From Oscillospiraceae bacterium (GTDB lineage Bacteria > Bacillota > Clostridia > Oscillospirales > Oscillospiraceae), in assembly GCA_022792495.1 (NCBI GenBank), contig JAAWBD010000085.1:1-64000 (forward strand): a stretch of 64,000 nt of DNA. Direction: 5' to 3'. The position numbers and the translations under genes were made by a program. Below are positions 20,671-30,082 of the stretch, piece after piece; the first letter of the stretch is position 1, and every line of letters begins with the position of its first letter. The notes beneath the pieces are model-generated. The model searched no databases, had not been told where the DNA came from, and saw only the letters and a program-made list of their open reading frames with translations.

Positions 20671-21282
20671 TCAGATTTCTTCCGCCACCCGCTCACAGCG
20701 GATGGTGGTGCGGTACTGCCCACCCAAAGTACAGGTAAACAGACTCAATGCCCAGTCTCCCGACAGCATCCGCGCCGCCTCCTCTGGGTTCAGCTGCTCC
20801 TTCTCCGCCACAGCGTACTCGAAGCAGTTTCCATCGATGTCGATGAACTCCACCCGATCCCCAATCTCCAGTTGGATCAGCCCCCCAAAGTGGTGGGGAT
20901 AATTGTGGGCGCACACCACCAGATCGTCCAGATAGGCCGACCCCGCATACCGGCACGGGGCCACCTTCAGCTTCTTGTAGCTCCAGGTTCGCATCACCGG
21001 CAGATCAATGCCGATGGCCGGAATACTGATATAGCCGATGTATTCCTCCCCATCCAGCTCCACCGCCGGCATCTCCATCTCCGGCGCCAGCTCATGATCC
21101 GGGATCATCCCCTCGGGAAGCTCCCGCTGAGCCGGGATGATCTGCTCCATCTGCCGCATCACACTCGCCACGCTCTCAGCCGCCCGGCTCTCGTCCCAAA
21201 GGTTATACCCGGCCAGCCCAGCGGCTCCCAGCAGCAGGAGAAGCCCCAGCGCCATCAGCAGCGTTCCTTTTTTATTCCTCAT
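20671..21282 (-). CDS. Sortase
   Basis: YIGYISIPAIGIDLPVM; VVCAHNYPHHFG (His); LFTCTLGGQYRTTIRCERV (Cys...Arg). Confidence 0.88.
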   Translation of the reverse strand: MRNKKGTLLMALGLLLLLGAAGLAGYNLWDESRAAESVASVMRQMEQIIPAQRELPEGMIPDHELAPEMEMPAVELDGEEYIGYISIPAIGIDLPVMRTWSYKKLKVAPCRYAGSAYLDDLVVCAHNYPHHFGGLIQLEIGDRVEFIDIDGNCFEYAVAEKEQLNPEEAARMLSGDWALSLFTCTLGGQYRTTIRCERVAEEI

Positions 21283-22357
21283 CCTCGCCGCTCCATCTCC
21301 GCCGCCGGGCAATCCCCAGCAGCAGCAACGCCGCGCCCCCCATGGCCAGCAGGGGCACCGGCCACCAGAGCTGTCCTGTCTGGGGCAGCCTGGCCAGAGG
21401 CGGCTCCTCATCCTCCAGCTCCTCTTCCTCGGAAGGCGGCAGCTCCTCCTCCCACCCGCTCAGGGGGGGCTTCCAGTCCGTGATGTCCTCTTCCTCTGGC
21501 GGCAGCTCCTCCCTGTTCTCCGCAGGCGGCGTCTCCGGGCCTCTCTCCAGATAGCTGTTGGTGATCACAAAGGTGATCCCCCCCTGGGAGACCGATACGC
21601 TGTACCCCTTGGACTCCCGCTCCGCCACCTGCCAGTTCCCTCCGGCGTCCAGTCCCGTCCAGTCGTGCCGCCAGTTGTTCCCTTGGTTCAGCTCCACGCT
21701 GTCATAGACCTGGCCATCCCGGAGCAGCTCCACCGTCACCCTCTCCGGCCGCTCCTCCTCGTGCCCCCGGTCCTCCCAGACCTTCAGCACTCGATAGCTC
21801 ACCGTCTCCGGATCGGTGGAATCTCCCCCGCCGGTAGACCTCCGCCCATACTTGGCGTAGGTCACCACATCCGCCTCCCAACTGCGCCCGTCCGCAGTGT
21901 AGGGTAGCGACAGCAAAAAGGGAGTTGGAGTGTACACATACCCATCCAGACTTCTGGCATCCCCCACGATCAGATACAGCCCCTTCTCCAGCTGGGAGAA
22001 GCTCACCCTCCCCTCCCCGTCAGTCAAGCCAGCGGTGGTAGGCAGGATCTGATCCCGGGCCACATATCCCGATAGGGTCATGGCTCGAGCCAGCCAGTCG
22101 GAGGCAGTCACCTGATACTTCCGGTACTCCTCCAGCAGTCGGAAGGTCATCGCGTCCGTGATCTCAGCCACCCGGTAAAGGCGGAACTCCACCCCCTCCA
22201 TGGCCCGATCCTCATCCACCACATAGCTCAGCTCCAGGGAGCACTTCTCCACCTCGTCCAGCGCGGCGGCAAGACCCCTCCCAGGCAGACAGGCTCCGCA
22301 CAGCACAAAGCACAGCAGAAACGCCGCCACGCGCCGGAGCTCAATTTTTCTTCTCAT
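21272..22357 (-). CDS. LPXTG-anchored (LPQTG) SpaA/Cna-B type minor pilin
   Basis: Signal peptide; GVEFRLYRVAEIT; Cna_B-like VTVELLRDGQVYDSVELNQGNNWRHDWTGLDAGGNW; LPQTG-TM-RRRR sorting signal. Confidence 0.88.
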   Translation of the reverse strand: MRRKIELRRVAAFLLCFVLCGACLPGRGLAAALDEVEKCSLELSYVVDEDRAMEGVEFRLYRVAEITDAMTFRLLEEYRKYQVTASDWLARAMTLSGYVARDQILPTTAGLTDGEGRVSFSQLEKGLYLIVGDARSLDGYVYTPTPFLLSLPYTADGRSWEADVVTYAKYGRRSTGGGDSTDPETVSYRVLKVWEDRGHEEERPERVTVELLRDGQVYDSVELNQGNNWRHDWTGLDAGGNWQVAERESKGYSVSVSQGGITFVITNSYLERGPETPPAENREELPPEEEDITDWKPPLSGWEEELPPSEEEELEDEEPPLARLPQTGQLWWPVPLLAMGGAALLLLGIARRRRWSGEDEE

Positions 22358-23258
22358 GTTCCGATCCCTGCCTTTCCCCACCCTGTCCGGGCGGCGGAGT
22401 GGTCTCCATTCTCTTTCCCCTTTTGATCCGTTTTCCGGATCTTTTCTTTTGGGGGCTCCTGGTCATGGACCATACCATCAAAAGCGCCAGCATAGGCGCC
22501 GCCGCGATGGGGGCCACGATCACCGGGTCAATGCGCATGGCCTCCGCCGTGACCCGTACCACCGCCGCGTTCTCCCGGTTGGCCACCCGGTGTCCCCGCA
22601 CCAGCAGCCGGTGGCTGTTCACCCCATAGGGCGTACATGTCACCAGCGTGCAGTAGTCCTTCCCCTCCTCAATGGCCAGATCCTCCAGCTCCGTGGGCAA
22701 CACGATGTGGATCTGATCCACCTCATAGGTCATGGTCTCGTTCAGGATCTGCAGCAGGAAGATATCCCCCTCGCTCAGCCGGTCCAAATCGGTAAAGAGC
22801 TTCGCGCTGGGCAGCCCCCGGTGCCCCGACAGCACGCTGTGGGTGGTGACCCCCCCTACCGGCAGGGAGGTTCCCTCCAGATGCCCCACCGCGATCTGCA
22901 GCACCGCCTCGTCGGTTCCATGGTAGATAGGCAGCTCACAGTGGATCTCCGGGATACTGATATACCCCATCACCCCTGTACCGGAAACATCCAGCAGGCT
23001 GTTGTACCACTCACGCTCCTCCTCCGGCATATAGAGCGGATTGCTCTTCTCCGCCAGGCTCCTGTTGTACTCCCCCGCCGCCCTCCACATCTCCTCATAG
23101 AGGGCACTGTCCATCTCATGGATGCTCTCGGCATAGCTGGCAATGGCCCGGGACTGATGGAAGGAATTCCAGTAGTCGCTGACCGTGGGATACAGCAGCA
23201 GCCCCACCCCGATCAAAAGGGTCAGACTCAGGAGCAGATTGACCAGTTTCTTTTTCAT
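22341..23258 (-). CDS. Class C (pilin-polymerising) sortase
   Basis: LSGHRGLPSAKLFTDLDRLSEGDIFLL; YCTLVTCTPYGVNSHRLLVRGHRV; N- and C-terminal TM segments. Confidence 0.93.
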   Translation of the reverse strand: MKKKLVNLLLSLTLLIGVGLLLYPTVSDYWNSFHQSRAIASYAESIHEMDSALYEEMWRAAGEYNRSLAEKSNPLYMPEEEREWYNSLLDVSGTGVMGYISIPEIHCELPIYHGTDEAVLQIAVGHLEGTSLPVGGVTTHSVLSGHRGLPSAKLFTDLDRLSEGDIFLLQILNETMTYEVDQIHIVLPTELEDLAIEEGKDYCTLVTCTPYGVNSHRLLVRGHRVANRENAAVVRVTAEAMRIDPVIVAPIAAAPMLALLMVWSMTRSPQKKRSGKRIKRGKRMETTPPPGQGGERQGSEHEKKN

Positions 23259-23342
23259 AAGGGTCACTTTCCGCCGCCGCGCCCGAAGGGATCCACTCCC
23301 CCCGGACGCGGCAGATCAGCTTTTCAAGCTCTATGTGTTTCC

Positions 23343-24818
23343 TCAGTCCTCTTCCTCAGCGCCCATGCGCTTCTTGGTCACCAGCAGGATCCCAGCCCCC
23401 AGGGCCAGCGCGCCGCCGGTAATGTAGAAGATAGTGGTGCCGATACCGCCGGTGCTGGGCAGCTCCGCGCCGGTCAGGTTCTCCACCCGGAGTCCTCCGG
23501 ACAGATAGACCGTCTTGCCGTCGACCTCGTTGGTCTCCACCTTGCCCAGGCTCTTCTCCGGGCCGACCTCCACAAGAACGCGCTCATTCAGCTTGTTGTA
23601 GCCGCTGGGCTGCTTGGTCTCCTCCAGGTAATAGCTGCCCTCGCCCAGGCCCTTGATGGTGGCGATGCCGGCGGCGATAACGGTGGTGCCGGTCTCCCCC
23701 TCCTCAGCGGGACGGTAGTAGCTCCCATTCACCTCGTCCTCCACGAACACCAGGGAGACAGCCTCCCCCGCCTCAGCGGTGGTGTAGAGAGCGAACTCGG
23801 CCCCCGTCAGGATCTGGTTGCCGGAGGCCACGCTGCTGGTCTTGGCCAGATCAAACTCAAACAGCTCGGAATCGGTGGTGCTGGGCTTGGTCTCCACGGT
23901 GTGGTTGTTCTCGCCGTAATCCATGTGGGCCACGTTGTTCACCGTGTCCACCGTCAGCGCCTCAGCGGTGATGGTGGCGGAGTAGGTCACCACGATCTGG
24001 GTCTCCTCGGTGATGGTGTCCAGATAGCTCTGGGCAAATACCAGATGGAAGGTGCAGCCGTCGGTCAGCCCATCGGTGACCACAGTGTAGTTGGCGGCGT
24101 CCACACCGGCCACGGCCACATCATTGTTGAAGCTCAGCCCCTTGCCCATGGCATCGTGCATCACATAGGCCTCCGCCCCCGGCTGGGCGGTGATGGTCAC
24201 CTTATAGTCCTTGCTGTCACCCACGCTGGGCTGGTTCTCGTCGGCCTTCTTGACCTCCTCCTTCACGATGACCGGCTTTTTGTTCTTCTCGGTGATGGTC
24301 ACCGTGGTGTTGGTGGTGTCCAGGGCACACAGGCTGCCCACAGTGGAGGAGACCAGGTAGTAACCCAGAACCAGCTCTCCAAAGCTGGCAGTGGTGGTAG
24401 CCTCCGCCTCAGTCCCCTCGGGAGCCGCCTCAGTCACGGTGACCGCGTCAGCCTTCACGCTCTTCTCCACGGCCCAGTCCATGGCGGCCTTGGCCAGGGC
24501 CTTCACATCCGCCCCGTCCTTCCAGGTCACATAGCCCTGGTCGTCCACGTTCACATAGGCGGCGCCGGGGGCTCCCTCCGCTACAAAGCCGGCCCAATTG
24601 GCGTTGACCTTATAGGAGTGGGGTGCGTTTTCCTCATTGCTGCCCTCTCCGCCATAGCTTTCCAGGTCGAAAAGCCGGTAGGCCTTGTACTCCTGCCCAT
24701 AGGGAGCCTTGTCAATGGTGATGCTGGCTGTTTCTCCCGCGGCAAAGGCGGGGGCGGCCAGGCACAGGGTCATGACCAGGGCCAGCGCGGCGCTGGCAAG
24801 TCTCTTCATCGTTTTCAT
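23343..24818 (-). CDS. Major pilin, isopeptide-forming SpaH/EbpB-like, LPSTG
   Basis: Signal peptide; E-box-like GSYYLEETKQPSGYN; LPSTGGIGTTIFYITGGALALGAGILLVTKKR. Confidence 0.92.
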   Translation of the reverse strand: MKTMKRLASAALALVMTLCLAAPAFAAGETASITIDKAPYGQEYKAYRLFDLESYGGEGSNEENAPHSYKVNANWAGFVAEGAPGAAYVNVDDQGYVTWKDGADVKALAKAAMDWAVEKSVKADAVTVTEAAPEGTEAEATTTASFGELVLGYYLVSSTVGSLCALDTTNTTVTITEKNKKPVIVKEEVKKADENQPSVGDSKDYKVTITAQPGAEAYVMHDAMGKGLSFNNDVAVAGVDAANYTVVTDGLTDGCTFHLVFAQSYLDTITEETQIVVTYSATITAEALTVDTVNNVAHMDYGENNHTVETKPSTTDSELFEFDLAKTSSVASGNQILTGAEFALYTTAEAGEAVSLVFVEDEVNGSYYRPAEEGETGTTVIAAGIATIKGLGEGSYYLEETKQPSGYNKLNERVLVEVGPEKSLGKVETNEVDGKTVYLSGGLRVENLTGAELPSTGGIGTTIFYITGGALALGAGILLVTKKRMGAEEED

Positions 24819-24906
24819 TGTTTTGTCTCCTTTCAATATGTGGTGCCTGAGGTGAATCTGTCTCTTTTGTGTATTCCTCTTGCTCTCTCTCCTTGCCGGG
24901 GAAGGT

Positions 24907-27900
24907 TTATCCCCATACCCCCTCCCCCTCTCTCTGACTCCACTGCTTCTTTTTATACATCAGGAAAGCCGCCCCCATCAGGGTCAGGACTCCCATTGTA
25001 TACCAAAGGGTGGTTCCGCTGCCGCCTGTGGCAGGCAGCTCGTAGTCGGCGGTGTTGATAAAGGTCACCCATGTCAGCTTCCCCGGCGTCACCGCCCCGG
25101 AGGTCACTGCCGACACGTCGGCTCCAAACCGCTCCACCTTCTCCTCGCCGTTCTCTCCCACCACCGTGTGGATCTCGGTACGGTAGCCCTGCTTGAACTC
25201 CCCCACCTCAGTGATGGTGTACCGGGTGTTCTCCGGCAGATGGTGGATCACCAGGATCTCCCCCGGCTCCAGCTCAAAGATCCCGTCGTTTCCGATGGCG
25301 TCTCCCCCATCCCGGTCGGAGGTGCTGATCTGTCCGTCCGGATCCCGGTGGAGGTACTGGATCTCATAATTGTCCGCCCCGTCCAGGCCCAAGGTGAACC
25401 GGAAGGGCGTATTGTCCTCCATGCCGCCCATCTGCTTCTCGATCCGGATAGTCCCCGTGTCCTGTTCGATCAGATCCTGGATCTGGGTCTCCAGATCCAC
25501 TCCCACCACCGTGGGCAGGGTGTACTGCATCCAGCAAGTGGAGCCCGAGGCTCCCCGCTCCGTGTAGAAGAAGGTGAGCCGGTAAGTTACCCGGGTATCC
25601 GGGGCCCACTCGTCGGTGCTGATATAGTCCCAAAGATCCACATACTGGCCTGCGGAGGGATGCACACCACCGATATCCACGATCTGCCGGGAGCCCTTCA
25701 GCGTCTCATTCCCGTCCCCATCCTTCTCCACCTGGCTGAGGAACACCCACATGTCATCGTCGCCGAAGAAGTAGTACTCCAACGGCCCGATATAGTTCTT
25801 GGTCAGCTCAAAGTCCACGGCAAAATTCATGCCGAAGTAGCCGTTGTGATCCTTTCCGTCATCGCTGTAAGGCAAGCTGGCCGCGTTGGCCTGCCCGTCA
25901 TTGGCCCGCTTCACCACATCCTTCTTGCCAAAGATGATGTCGTGTCCCTTCGCGCCCCAGGTGCTGGCCGAATCCATGGGCCAGAAATCGTTGCTCCAGA
26001 CCCCGGAGTTCAGCCGGAAGCTGTCCAGCTCCCTGGCCACAGTGCCGGGGATCTGGGTCAGGGTGTAGGTATCCCCCACCCGGCTGAATTGGATCCCGTC
26101 AATCTCCTGGAGCAGGGTCTTTCCCTCCTGGGCCCCGCCGCCGAACAGGACAGGCCCCACGATATCGTCGTCAAAGAACACATCATTCCCCTGCTCGTTC
26201 ATCCCCTTCACCAGCCCATAGGCACCGCCCTTAAAGGTGATATCCACCCGGTTGGGCCACTTGCCGCTTGCGTTGCGCTGGTTGATCAGATTCCCCAGGG
26301 AATCGGTGCCATTTTTCAGGCTTTCCGTTGTGCCCGTATTGGCATTTCCAAAGGCAAACCGGGCCTTGCCCCAGGGAATGTCCCCCCCATTGATCCCGAA
26401 GTTCTTGCCATCTCTGCTTGTGATCATATTTGTGGCGCCCACCCCGTGGGTGCCGTCGCTGATATCGTAATCATAGAAATCCGCCGGGAAAACCTCATCC
26501 TTTTGCTGGGGGTCGTAGATCAGCCGGATCACATCCTCCCCCTCCACCAAAATGTAGTTCTCATTGGCCTGTGCCGTCTCAGGGCGGTTGGTAAACCGGG
26601 TCACCCCCTCCTCATAGGGGAGCACCAGCCAATCCGCCGCTTCCGTACTGGTAGGATCTCCCTGTCCCCCCTTCTGGATCCAGATCTCATGGACTCTATA
26701 TTGGATATCCTGCACATTGCTTACCATATTAAAGTACTGCAGGCCGGGGGCGTCGAAATATTCAAACCGGCTGCCCTTCCGGGGATCATAGCCCCCCTCC
26801 TCGCCCCGCTTGTAGATCTCCGTCAGGATCCGCTGGGTCTCCACCTGACCGTCCGCCTTCACATAGATATTACGGACAACTGCGGAGGTCGCTCCCTTTT
26901 CGGGGAAGCTGCCCCCCACCTTCCGGCTGGTGTCCATCACATCCAGCGCGGTCCCGCTACCGTTCGCGGTGACCAGCCGATCCATCCAGGCGTAGTACTG
27001 CACATAGAAAACCACGTTGGCCCCCTGGGTCACCGAGTAGCCTACAGTGCCCCGCCGCTGGGTATATGCCTTAAAGTGGAGCTCCATGGCCTCACTCTTC
27101 TCCTCAGCGGTTTCCCCCTCCAGCTCCAGGGTCATCAGCCCCAGATCCTCGGGGCTGTCCAGCATCTCCTGGAAGGCCTGGGTGGGCTCCACCTCCAGGC
27201 TCACCTCGCACCCGGTCAGATCCACGGCCTCTCCGTTGTAGGTCAGGGTGTAGTCCAGAGCTCCCACCATCATGACCTCGCCGTCCTCGGCCGCCAGGCT
27301 GGCGTACTCATCATAGGCCTCCATATCCTCCGACTGGGTGACCGCCAGCTGGAACCCGGTCTCCTCTCCCTCCGTCTGGGGCACCAGGGCGATCCCTTCC
27401 GCCCGAAGGGTCAGGAGCACCGCTCCGTCCTCGCTCTCCGCGGTAAAGCTCTCCTGCAGCTCCACCGCCTCCGGCTCGGGCAGGGGCTCTTCCAGGCATT
27501 GCTCCACATGGGTGTGCTCGGGAATGTTACACTTCAGCTCCCCATCCTCAAAGAAGCACTCCTCCACATGGGTGTGCTCCATCAGGAAGCCGCAGTAATA
27601 ATGGATCTTCTCCTCCAGCTCCAGGGCCAGATAGCAATTGTCGTCGTGGGTATGCTCCTCCAGAGCGCAGGTAAGCGTCCGCAGCTCCTCCGTCTCCTCC
27701 GCCCCCTCGGCGTAGCAGCTCTCACTATGGCTGTGGCCCTCCCTCTCTTCCAGAGTGCAGGCCTCCCGGGTCACCGTCTCAAAGCAGGCCTCCCCGTGGC
27801 TGTGGCCTTCCCTTTCCTCCAGAGTACAGCTCAGTTTCTCGCTCCACTCGTAGCAGCTGTCGCTGTGCGCATGGGGAATGGACTCGGTGACAGTCTCGGT

Positions 27901-28449
27901 AACGGTCTCCATCACAGTTTCGGTCACCAGCTCGGTGACGGCCTCGGTCTCCACCACCGTCTCGCCGTTCTCGTCCACTCTCTCCCTCTCCACATCCACG
28001 CTGATCTCCCGGCTGATTTCCCGGGGAACCTCCCGGGTCACCTCCCGCTCCACGGTCTCCTCTGTCTCGGTGCAGATCAGCTCCCCCCGAAGGGAAACGT
28101 AGCAACTCTCATCATGGCTGTGGCCCTCCCCCTCAGTGAGAGCACAGGTCAGCTCCTCAGTCTCTCCCGCCCCACAGCTCTCACTGTGCGTATGGCCCTG
28201 GGCCTCCGCCAGCTCGCAGGTCGGCTCGCCGCTGCGGGTCACCGTCTCCACAGTGTAGCATTCCTCAGTGTGGACATGCTCGGGGATCTCGCACTGCAGG
28301 GGAGTGGTCATGGTGATGGCGGGAAGGATCAGGGCGTAGGTAGTGCAGAACACGACCACACCGGCCAATCCGGTGACCACCTTCTGCCAGCGGCTTTCCT
28401 TCCGCTGGGTAGCCAGATACTGCTTCGCCTGCCGTCTGACTCGTTCCAT
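24907..28449 (-). CDS. Large LPXTG (LPATG) pilus tip/adhesin-like protein with N-terminal Cys/His repeats and fibro-slime-like domain
   Basis: 1180 aa; nine C/H repeats (HTHxxxCY type); FAVDFELTKNYIGPLEYYFFGDDDMWVFL...IVDIGGVHPSAG fibro-slime/PA14-like; LPATGGSGTTLWYTMGVLTLMGAAFLMYKKK. Confidence 0.88.
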   Translation of the reverse strand: MERVRRQAKQYLATQRKESRWQKVVTGLAGVVVFCTTYALILPAITMTTPLQCEIPEHVHTEECYTVETVTRSGEPTCELAEAQGHTHSESCGAGETEELTCALTEGEGHSHDESCYVSLRGELICTETEETVEREVTREVPREISREISVDVERERVDENGETVVETEAVTELVTETVMETVTETVTESIPHAHSDSCYEWSEKLSCTLEEREGHSHGEACFETVTREACTLEEREGHSHSESCYAEGAEETEELRTLTCALEEHTHDDNCYLALELEEKIHYYCGFLMEHTHVEECFFEDGELKCNIPEHTHVEQCLEEPLPEPEAVELQESFTAESEDGAVLLTLRAEGIALVPQTEGEETGFQLAVTQSEDMEAYDEYASLAAEDGEVMMVGALDYTLTYNGEAVDLTGCEVSLEVEPTQAFQEMLDSPEDLGLMTLELEGETAEEKSEAMELHFKAYTQRRGTVGYSVTQGANVVFYVQYYAWMDRLVTANGSGTALDVMDTSRKVGGSFPEKGATSAVVRNIYVKADGQVETQRILTEIYKRGEEGGYDPRKGSRFEYFDAPGLQYFNMVSNVQDIQYRVHEIWIQKGGQGDPTSTEAADWLVLPYEEGVTRFTNRPETAQANENYILVEGEDVIRLIYDPQQKDEVFPADFYDYDISDGTHGVGATNMITSRDGKNFGINGGDIPWGKARFAFGNANTGTTESLKNGTDSLGNLINQRNASGKWPNRVDITFKGGAYGLVKGMNEQGNDVFFDDDIVGPVLFGGGAQEGKTLLQEIDGIQFSRVGDTYTLTQIPGTVARELDSFRLNSGVWSNDFWPMDSASTWGAKGHDIIFGKKDVVKRANDGQANAASLPYSDDGKDHNGYFGMNFAVDFELTKNYIGPLEYYFFGDDDMWVFLSQVEKDGDGNETLKGSRQIVDIGGVHPSAGQYVDLWDYISTDEWAPDTRVTYRLTFFYTERGASGSTCWMQYTLPTVVGVDLETQIQDLIEQDTGTIRIEKQMGGMEDNTPFRFTLGLDGADNYEIQYLHRDPDGQISTSDRDGGDAIGNDGIFELEPGEILVIHHLPENTRYTITEVGEFKQGYRTEIHTVVGENGEEKVERFGADVSAVTSGAVTPGKLTWVTFINTADYELPATGGSGTTLWYTMGVLTLMGAAFLMYKKKQWSQREGEGVWG

Positions 28450-28538: not shown

Positions 28539-29123
28539 TCAGCCCACCGGCCCGATCCCCTCCCAGGGCCAGATCCGGAAGATCAGCCTGCCCACGATCT
28601 GCTCGTCAGACACACATCCCACCGCCGTATTCCGGGAATCCAGCGATACGCTGCGATGGTCTCCCATCACAAAGATCCGGGATTCCGGCACCTGGTAGGG
28701 AAGCTCAATGTTGCACTGCCCCAGGGCTTTTTCCTGCAAATAGGGCTCCTCCAAAACCTCTCCGTCCAGGTAGACCGTCCCGTTCTCATCGATGTCCACC
28801 CACTGTCCGGCAGTGGCGATGACCCGTTTCACCAAAACCTTGTTGTCAAAGTAAAACGCGATCACATCGCCGGGCTTATACTTGGAGCCGTTCATGGACA
28901 CCACGATATCCCCTTCCAGCAGGTTGGGCGCCATGGAGGTTCCCGTGATCTGAAGCACCGGCAGCAGCAGAGTTGCGATCAAAACTGCCGCAGCTGCCAC
29001 GGTGATAAGGGTATAAATGGTGTTGCGAAGTACGCTTCGGTAGCGCTTTCGGTAATTTTCCCGGCGCAGCTCGGCTTCCAGCACCTCCACCGAGGGCCGC
29101 TTTTCCGGAAACCGTCTTTTCAC
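28539..29123 (-). CDS. lepB: Signal peptidase I (S26), probably pilus-dedicated
   Basis: ITGTSMAPNLLEGDIVV (Ser); KVLVKRVIATAGQWV (Lys); VMGDHRSVSLDSR. Confidence 0.93.
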   Translation of the reverse strand: MKRRFPEKRPSVEVLEAELRRENYRKRYRSVLRNTIYTLITVAAAAVLIATLLLPVLQITGTSMAPNLLEGDIVVSMNGSKYKPGDVIAFYFDNKVLVKRVIATAGQWVDIDENGTVYLDGEVLEEPYLQEKALGQCNIELPYQVPESRIFVMGDHRSVSLDSRNTAVGCVSDEQIVGRLIFRIWPWEGIGPVG

Positions 29124-29632
29124 GTTTTTTCCTCCCGGGTTCTATTCTGGGTCCGACGGAGCAGCCATTCGGTCAGCTCCTCATGATCGGTCAGGTACTG
29201 CTCCAGCCGGCGGGACACCTCGTTCCAATAGCTGTCCGCCTCCCGCTGGGCCTGGGCGGTCATCTCCTCACAGGAGCGCTTGGTCTCCTCCTCCAGAGTC
29301 CGGCACCGCTGGGCGGCCTCGGCGATCATGGCCTCCGCCCGCTCCTTGGCCTTGGTCTCCAGCTGGTCGGCCTGGAGACTGTACCGTGTCTCCATGATCC
29401 TGATGTTCTCCAGATATTGGGCGGCGGCCTCGTCAGCGGCCTGGAACACAGCATTGAGCCGGAGGGCCGCCTCAGCCATAGTTCCGGCCTCCTGAAGGAT
29501 GATCTCCCGCTCCTCCAGCTTTGCCTGGGCCAGGGCCAACTCCTCCTCCAGGGCATCGCCCTTTTGGGTCTGCTCAATAAGCATCTGCAGCAACTCATCC
29601 CGGCGAAGCTTCTTCATCTCTTTGCCAGTCAT
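29120..29632 (-). CDS. Coiled-coil protein, first gene of pilus operon
   Basis: Almost entirely heptad-like (LEEELALAQAKLEEREIILQEAG... RCRTLEEETKRSCEEMTAQAQREADSYWNEVSRRLEQ); start at MTGKEMKK or further upstream to 29665. Confidence 0.65.
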   Translation of the reverse strand: MTGKEMKKLRRDELLQMLIEQTQKGDALEEELALAQAKLEEREIILQEAGTMAEAALRLNAVFQAADEAAAQYLENIRIMETRYSLQADQLETKAKERAEAMIAEAAQRCRTLEEETKRSCEEMTAQAQREADSYWNEVSRRLEQYLTDHEELTEWLLRRTQNRTREEKT

Positions 29633-29670
29633 GCTCTCTTTTTCGCCTCCCGCGGAATTCAACACTCTTT

Positions 29671-29877
29671 GTTATGCCCCATTCGGGGGCATAACACAAA
29701 GGCGTACGCCTTTGCCCTTTTCCTTTTTTGCACATTATAGCATATGCCGGTTACAGAATCGGTTACAAATTACACATTTTCTTTCAAAGTATTTCGCCGT
29801 TTTTAACAAAATTCAGTGTAAGATTTTAGGCAATATGCCAGTCACACCGGCAATATTTTAGGAGTATAGTCCTTCTT
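29671..29877. repeat. Copy A of a diverged ~200 bp direct tandem duplication (promoter plus hairpins)
   Basis: Same order of elements as 29878-30082: hairpin 1, hairpin 2, ATTATAGCA, GGTTAC-N6-GGTTAC, CAATATG. Confidence 0.8.
29734..29766 (-). promoter_or_regulatory. Pilus operon promoter A: extended -10 TGCTATAAT with two upstream TGTAACC sites
   Basis: Minus strand TTTGTAACCGATTCTGTAACCGGCATATGCTATAAT; sites 12 bp apart, 9 nt from the -10. Confidence 0.65.
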
Positions 29878-30082
29878 GCTATGCCCCGTAGAAGGGGCAT
29901 AGCACAAAGCCGTACGGCTTTGGCGTTTTCTGGATTACAGCTACATTATAGCACACGCCGGTTACAAAAACAGTTACAAATCGCATATTTTCATTCAAAT
30001 TCCACCGTCATTTTAACCAATTTTATCCAGTCTTTTTTTGTGCAATATGTATCCTCTCTTCCTCCTCCCGGTTACAAAACGA
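29878..30082. repeat. Copy B of the diverged tandem duplication
   Basis: Colinear with copy A; both hairpins conserved with compensatory changes. Confidence 0.8.
29945..29977 (-). promoter_or_regulatory. Pilus operon promoter B: extended -10 TGCTATAAT with two upstream TGTAAC sites
   Basis: Minus strand TTTGTAACTGTTTTTGTAACCGGCGTGTGCTATAAT; same spacing as promoter A. Confidence 0.65.

Follow-up and report, generated by a model that had tools for sequence, protein, structure and literature searches.

Stem-loops at the 5' end stabilise the papA pilin mRNA and other mRNAs of E. coli, and the aprE leader of B. subtilis carries a stabilising 5' stem-loop as well, according to titles cited in PMC3997798; together with the ompA leader these are precedents for a 5' stabilising module. 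In Clostridium, transcript abundance is set by intercistronic stem-loops (PMC4423207). The element described here consists of a palindrome, hairpin A, followed by a second hairpin, B. Like the ompA, papA and aprE leaders, it would set hairpins at the predicted 5' end, or close to it, of strongly expressed messages that encode exported proteins, and papA encodes a pilin, as does the operon studied here. Those leaders, however, each serve a single gene and share no sequence, whereas A-B joins a conserved palindrome to a partner of free sequence at many genes in several genera; stabilisation, which occurs in the former, is only proposed for A-B. The selective RNA processing and stabilisation stem-loops of Clostridium cellulolyticum cip-cel likewise belong to extracellular-protein operons in related Clostridia, and intercistronic copies of A-B could act alike. 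The cip-cel stem-loops are mainly found at 3' ends and have no common sequence, whereas A-B is stereotyped and based in 5' leaders, with promoter-proximal copies at our locus. REP and BIME repeats are also intergenic paired palindromes, but A-B is not sequence-repeated within a genome and is oriented by transcription.

The window is the whole 64,000-nt stretch of Oscillospiraceae DNA that was analysed; it lies on contig C15 of an assembly of 1.87 Mb that is 68% complete. Between positions 29660 and 30045 its minus strand carries two tandem units, each running from a promoter through palindrome A to hairpin B. In copy 1, A is the 18-mer CAAAGGCGTACGCCTTTG (29697-29714), a full palindrome, and B is an 11-bp stem, TGTTATGCCCC-loop-GGGGCATAACA (29670-29696). 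In copy 2, A is the fully palindromic 18-mer CAAAGCCGTACGGCTTTG (29905-29922) and B is TGCTATGCCCC-loop-GGGGCATAGCA (29877-29904), also of 11 bp. The promoter-proximal parts of the units show 77% repeat identity over 78 nt at a spacing of 211. Loops and flanks have diverged between the copies; the stems differ at only two pairs, U-A to C-G in B and G-C to C-G in A, both of them compensatory. The preliminary description of this DNA, which had placed two diverged copies with two hairpins here and held that their stem differences preserve pairing, was therefore correct on both points. The pattern of the A palindrome matches twice in the window against 0.03 matches expected by chance, and both leaders fold far more stably than dinucleotide shuffles (z = -4.2 and -5.1). 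In two sister genomes, the leaders of homologous surface genes (L035 and L042) can be aligned with both copies over their full length, and neither stem is disrupted. The promoter-leader unit of the window is the product of a tandem duplication.

The proximal unit stands before a standard sortase-pilus operon on the minus strand, the pilus operon of the preliminary description. The first gene (29120-29632) encodes a 170-aa protein without a Pfam match, and related genes come first in the sister loci. It is followed by a SipW-like signal peptidase (28539-29123; Peptidase_S26), a large surface protein (24907-28449; DUF7601) that is likely the pilus tip protein, the pilin backbone (23343-24836; GramPos_pilinBB, SpaA and an LPXTG anchor), the pilus sortase (22341-23267), a minor pilin (21272-22381; Cna_B, GramPos_pilinD1, LPQTG) and, after it, a second sortase-domain protein. 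In L035 and L042 the A-B leader lies directly on homologues of the large surface protein. To the right of the units lies a divergent gene for a PAS-histidine-kinase-receiver protein, in which a domain search found no DNA-binding domain.

Each copy has a minus-strand promoter of the composition TGTAAC-N6-TGTAAC-N10-TATAAT. The proximal promoter P2 spans 29734-29767, with its -10 box at 29734-29739 and a predicted start near 29727; the distal promoter P1, with the same direct repeats and TATAAT, spans 29945-29978 and has a predicted start near 29938. A transcript from P1 would include A2-B2 and then A1-B1. The hairpins had been proposed to lie in the 5' leader of minus-strand transcripts, with promoters just to the right of each copy. 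The first proposal fits the predicted promoters and -10 positions, and the second is strengthened by recurrence: the composite string has four copies in this genome and a further 14 spread over 5 of the 15 other genus members, while a reversed-control version was absent from the genus genomes searched. Beyond the genus it is rare (3 of 301 family genomes, two of the three belonging to this genus). It is a largely genus-specific regulon promoter and probably activator-dependent. An A-B pair lies downstream of 10 of the 21 unique promoter copies; the remainder precede a small Pfam-unmatched protein family or other leaders. That family (MQERIRGNEYRTT..., MQERIRGNEYRTTVVCVDSY...) recurs under the composite promoter at L029, L030, L031, L032, L033 and L041, with a leader that lacks twin hairpins. 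Upstream of the promoter (window 29734-29978; L027-L058) we observed another conserved element, TTTGAAAGAAAAA. A c-di-GMP-I riboswitch, a leader type that also serves surface-protein genes, follows 3 of the 21 promoter copies (L036, which has A-B as well, L047 and L058), ahead of surface-protein or coiled-coil genes. The twin hairpin is distinct from this aptamer, being upstream and separate, and an Rfam search found neither a c-di-GMP-I nor a c-di-GMP-II aptamer at the window copies.

To collect further copies, we used the 16-nt core of A (AAAGGCGTACGCCTTT) alone as the query. The exact core occurs at 15 sites in 16 genomes of the genus; in the family, sites were present in 11 of the 401 genomes searched. 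The genus search returned no one-mismatch copies, and those two-mismatch matches that proved to be elements were symmetric. Since A was the sole search criterion, the flanks provide independent support: 18 of the 21 unique exact sites have a perfect 7-12 bp stem directly abutting on one side, as against 1.5% of random segments per side. A covariance model then found more copies with other A sequences. With an E-value limit of 1 it matched 12 of the 16 genus genomes; with a limit of 0.01 it matched 13 of 121 genomes from the family, of which three belong to this genus. Outside the family, 3 genomes of an order-wide sample of 197 matched, and among 300 phylum-wide genomes only this genome did. 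These rates are lower bounds and not strictly comparable because larger searches score fewer candidates per genome, and many of the genomes are draft metagenome assemblies. The element is nearly confined to the Oscillospiraceae and their order. About 41 elements were collected in total. Searching by the A sequence favours loci that resemble A, but loci reached through the promoter or the model obey the same palindromic rule. We excluded L137, L147, L144, L146, L006 and L026 as terminator-like or unrelated hairpins; L118 and L059 fall outside the strict B criteria of the curated set, and L075, which runs into an unrelated gene, and L063, at a contig end, have no usable downstream side.

The hairpins had been assigned to no known family, and a search of the window and 31 loci against 4227 Rfam families agrees, with nothing at cut-off over the hairpins and only c-di-GMP-I, cobalamin and tRNA matches elsewhere in the loci. 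Our literature search, with most subscription journals outside its reach, found no report of the motif. Nor did the units turn out to be a mobile repeat spread across the genome, an outcome the preliminary description had allowed for. The many near-identical copies per genome that characterise REP-like families are absent from this one: two weak 75-76% matches, both in the promoter part, are the only similar segments, and the stems of the other A-B elements differ from those of the window. A-B is a recurrent structured leader of common gut bacteria, absent from Rfam and with a simple testable signature.

Across the 41 curated copies the anatomy is regular. B lies on the downstream side of A in every copy, with an A-to-B gap of -4 to +2 nt (median -1), a median stem of 10 bp and a loop of mostly 3-4 nt. 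A keeps AAAGG...GUAC...CCUUU and changes symmetrically. Its inner 10-mer is GGCGTACGCC (GGCGUACGCC) in 22 of 41 copies, and the others carry symmetric variants such as GGGGTACCCC, GGGATATCCC, GGCATATGCC, AGCGTACGCT, GGTGTACACC and GCTATATAGC. A is perfectly palindromic through its loop in all but two copies, GGTATATGCC (with a U-G pair, G000:C26) and GGCGTGCGCC (L142). B, in contrast, is of arbitrary sequence yet perfectly paired, and its stems are unrelated between loci; among its 21 four-nt loops, 8 are self-complementary, a share above 1 in 16, and four of these read GTAC. The free sequence of B led a MAFFT alignment of the raw elements to misalign it, so we used a structure-registered, N-padded alignment, whose pair counts are accordingly fitted to the structure: pairing is 100%, 13 of 14 pairs show compensatory change, and double-sided changes occur in all B pairs and five of six A pairs. 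This alignment holds 118 double-sided compensatory cells against a shuffled mean of 26, and G-U pairs are few (3 of 405 cells). A strand-asymmetry count at the first unpaired position outside B (15 G-U versus 7 A-C) was left unused because it is confounded by the T-run of A. The view that structure is selected is supported by covariation over about 41 loci. Going beyond that view, A is constrained in sequence and not only in structure.

Of 41 loci checked, 33 have a -10 box ahead of A, in most cases at a distance of 4-37 nt. The distance is only 4-6 nt at L059, L062, L073, L086, L120 and L129, where A would begin at about +1 of the predicted transcript; many other loci have 5-25 unpaired nt ahead of A. 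Outside the promoter type of the window, consensus TTGACA-16/17-TATAAT-like promoters are common at A-B loci. A few copies are intercistronic: in two sister genomes the corresponding loci L067 and L122 have one ahead of DctP, and in G000:C86 one follows the RGNEYR gene, and some lie between genes without an evident promoter. A-B also stands upstream of a c-di-GMP-I riboswitch at L036 and of a cobalamin riboswitch at L140. The downstream proteins are mostly exported: a simple test finds a basic-hydrophobic stretch at the N terminus of at least 28 of the 39, and of more when two mis-called starts are counted. Their Pfam matches include DctP, SBP_bac_5, four DUF3798 lipoproteins, an LRR-transglutaminase and VWA surface proteins. 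The few non-secreted products include a PTS IIB protein; others, by the look of their sequence, may be CstA, a sugar-ABC ATPase and a PocR/AraC-type regulator. The element is not limited to pili; across the family it marks genes for exported proteins, and the class is clear: pili, adhesins and solute-binding lipoproteins.

The preliminary description left it open whether the hairpins act as RNA or as a DNA cruciform. The balance leans to RNA: B always lies downstream of A in the direction of transcription and is free in sequence yet strictly paired, the order along the transcript is fixed, and the distance from the promoter varies. Our preferred reading, which we put at about an even chance of being right, is that A-B is a 5'-terminal double hairpin that protects abundant exported-protein mRNAs from 5'-end decay. 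The promoter would drive an mRNA that folds over its first ~20-70 nt into A, the conserved palindrome with its GUAC-type loop, and an abutting B, which may have any sequence provided that it pairs perfectly. The pair would leave little unpaired RNA for 5'-end-dependent decay (RppH, RNase J, RNase Y) and would thereby make messages that encode abundant exported proteins last longer, in this case those of the pilus operon; at intergenic copies, it would shield the 5' end that the downstream message has after processing. This reading is supported by the abutting architecture in about 41 loci with its compensatory pairing, by the -10 box close upstream of A in most loci (the starts being predicted), by intercistronic use at L067, L122 and G000:C86, and by modular use ahead of riboswitches. 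The position of A at or near the predicted +1 behind strong promoters, the exported-protein genes and the independence from riboswitches agree best with a 5' stabilising module. The unpaired nucleotides ahead of A in many loci weaken simple blocking of the 5' end, and it counts against protection that about half of the same-type promoters in the genus lack such hairpins. A plain shield also does not explain the sequence constraint on A and its palindromic loop. Were A-B to stabilise mRNA, it would explain the sustained high surface-protein output of these anaerobes and offer a portable expression part.

That constraint is the basis of the main rival to protection, in which A (AAAGGCGUACGCCUUU, with its GUAC loop) is a recognition element for an RNA-binding protein or pairs with a second copy of itself as an RNA dimer, and B is a spacer or clamp. 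We judge this possible at perhaps a one-in-four level of belief, and hold with the same reserve that such recognition would coordinate the translation, decay or location of exported-protein mRNAs. Both the sequence and the structure of A are conserved across genera, and in 39 of 41 copies the loop of A can pair with itself, which a hairpin does not require. Moreover, the centre of A changes symmetrically before the same gene, from GCGTACGC in L067 to GCACGTGC in L122 and from GCGTACGC in L085 to GCGTATACGC in L130 and L145. Yet the many variants tolerated (among them GGGGTACCCC, GGGATATCCC, AGCGTACGCT and GCTATATAGC) are loose for sequence-specific binding, and the palindromic loop may reflect only a preferred R-U-A-Y turn, GTAC loops being present in four B hairpins as well. 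Dimerisation or protein binding of A would imply broad post-transcriptional control of the cell surface. A combined form, that A-B is a family-wide post-transcriptional tag in which A dimerises or is recognised by a protein at the 5' end and B is a structural clamp, seems to us unlikely; if true, it would give one handle on the decay or location of secretome mRNAs.

It is quite improbable that A is instead a DNA operator, a palindromic site immediately after the promoter to which a dimeric transcription factor binds. The DNA sequence of A does form a near-perfect palindrome of consensus AAAGG...CCTTT, but its distance from the -10 box ranges from 4 to 37 nt, some intergenic copies have no evident promoter, and an operator has no need for an unconserved B that always abuts A on the transcribed downstream side. 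We are just as doubtful of a transcription attenuator or terminator-antiterminator, in which A or B would end transcription unless disrupted. Some copies do have 5-7 T after A (L027, L040), and A and B compete for 1-4 bp in many loci through A 3' nucleotides that can be shared with B. However, the GC-rich hairpin plus U-run of an intrinsic terminator or attenuator is not found in the window, where UG comes after A and either AAGAG or AGAAG after B; most other copies also lack a U-run after either hairpin, and there is no conserved alternative long-range structure. Finally, a mutational by-product, whether of template switching at replication that keeps palindromes perfect or as remnants of a mobile palindromic repeat, is very hard to credit: the symmetric change of both arms, the rarity of G-U pairs and the lack of one-mismatch A copies among 16 genomes suit it, but no near-identical copies lie within a genome, the B stems of different loci bear no relation to one another, in contrast to REP-type families, and the way in which the elements keep their orientation, order and place in the leaders of a single gene class points to selection.

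Several further observations were made. In another family of the order, L149 and L150 have three hairpins in a row, the extra one upstream of A, and precede a gene whose product begins like a signal peptide. Palindrome A coincides exactly with a contig end three times, at L063 (G004:C21:1-17), L078 (G004:C29:91327-91343) and L135 (end of G005:C69), and G004:C21 and C29 could join at the palindrome; these ends suggest that the hairpin pair stops sequencing or assembly. GTTACA direct repeats number 21 in the genome of the window, against 1 for the reversed control. Seventeen of these differ from the composite promoter and mostly have 11-bp spacing; they lie on G000 contigs C1, C5, C10, C20, C25, C26 (at 4401), C28, C31, C33, C38, C61, C68, C75 and C88. 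We rejected the 11-bp-spaced repeats as the same promoter because a -10 box stands at a fixed distance only with 12-bp spacing. Several of the 17 lie near terminators or between genes.
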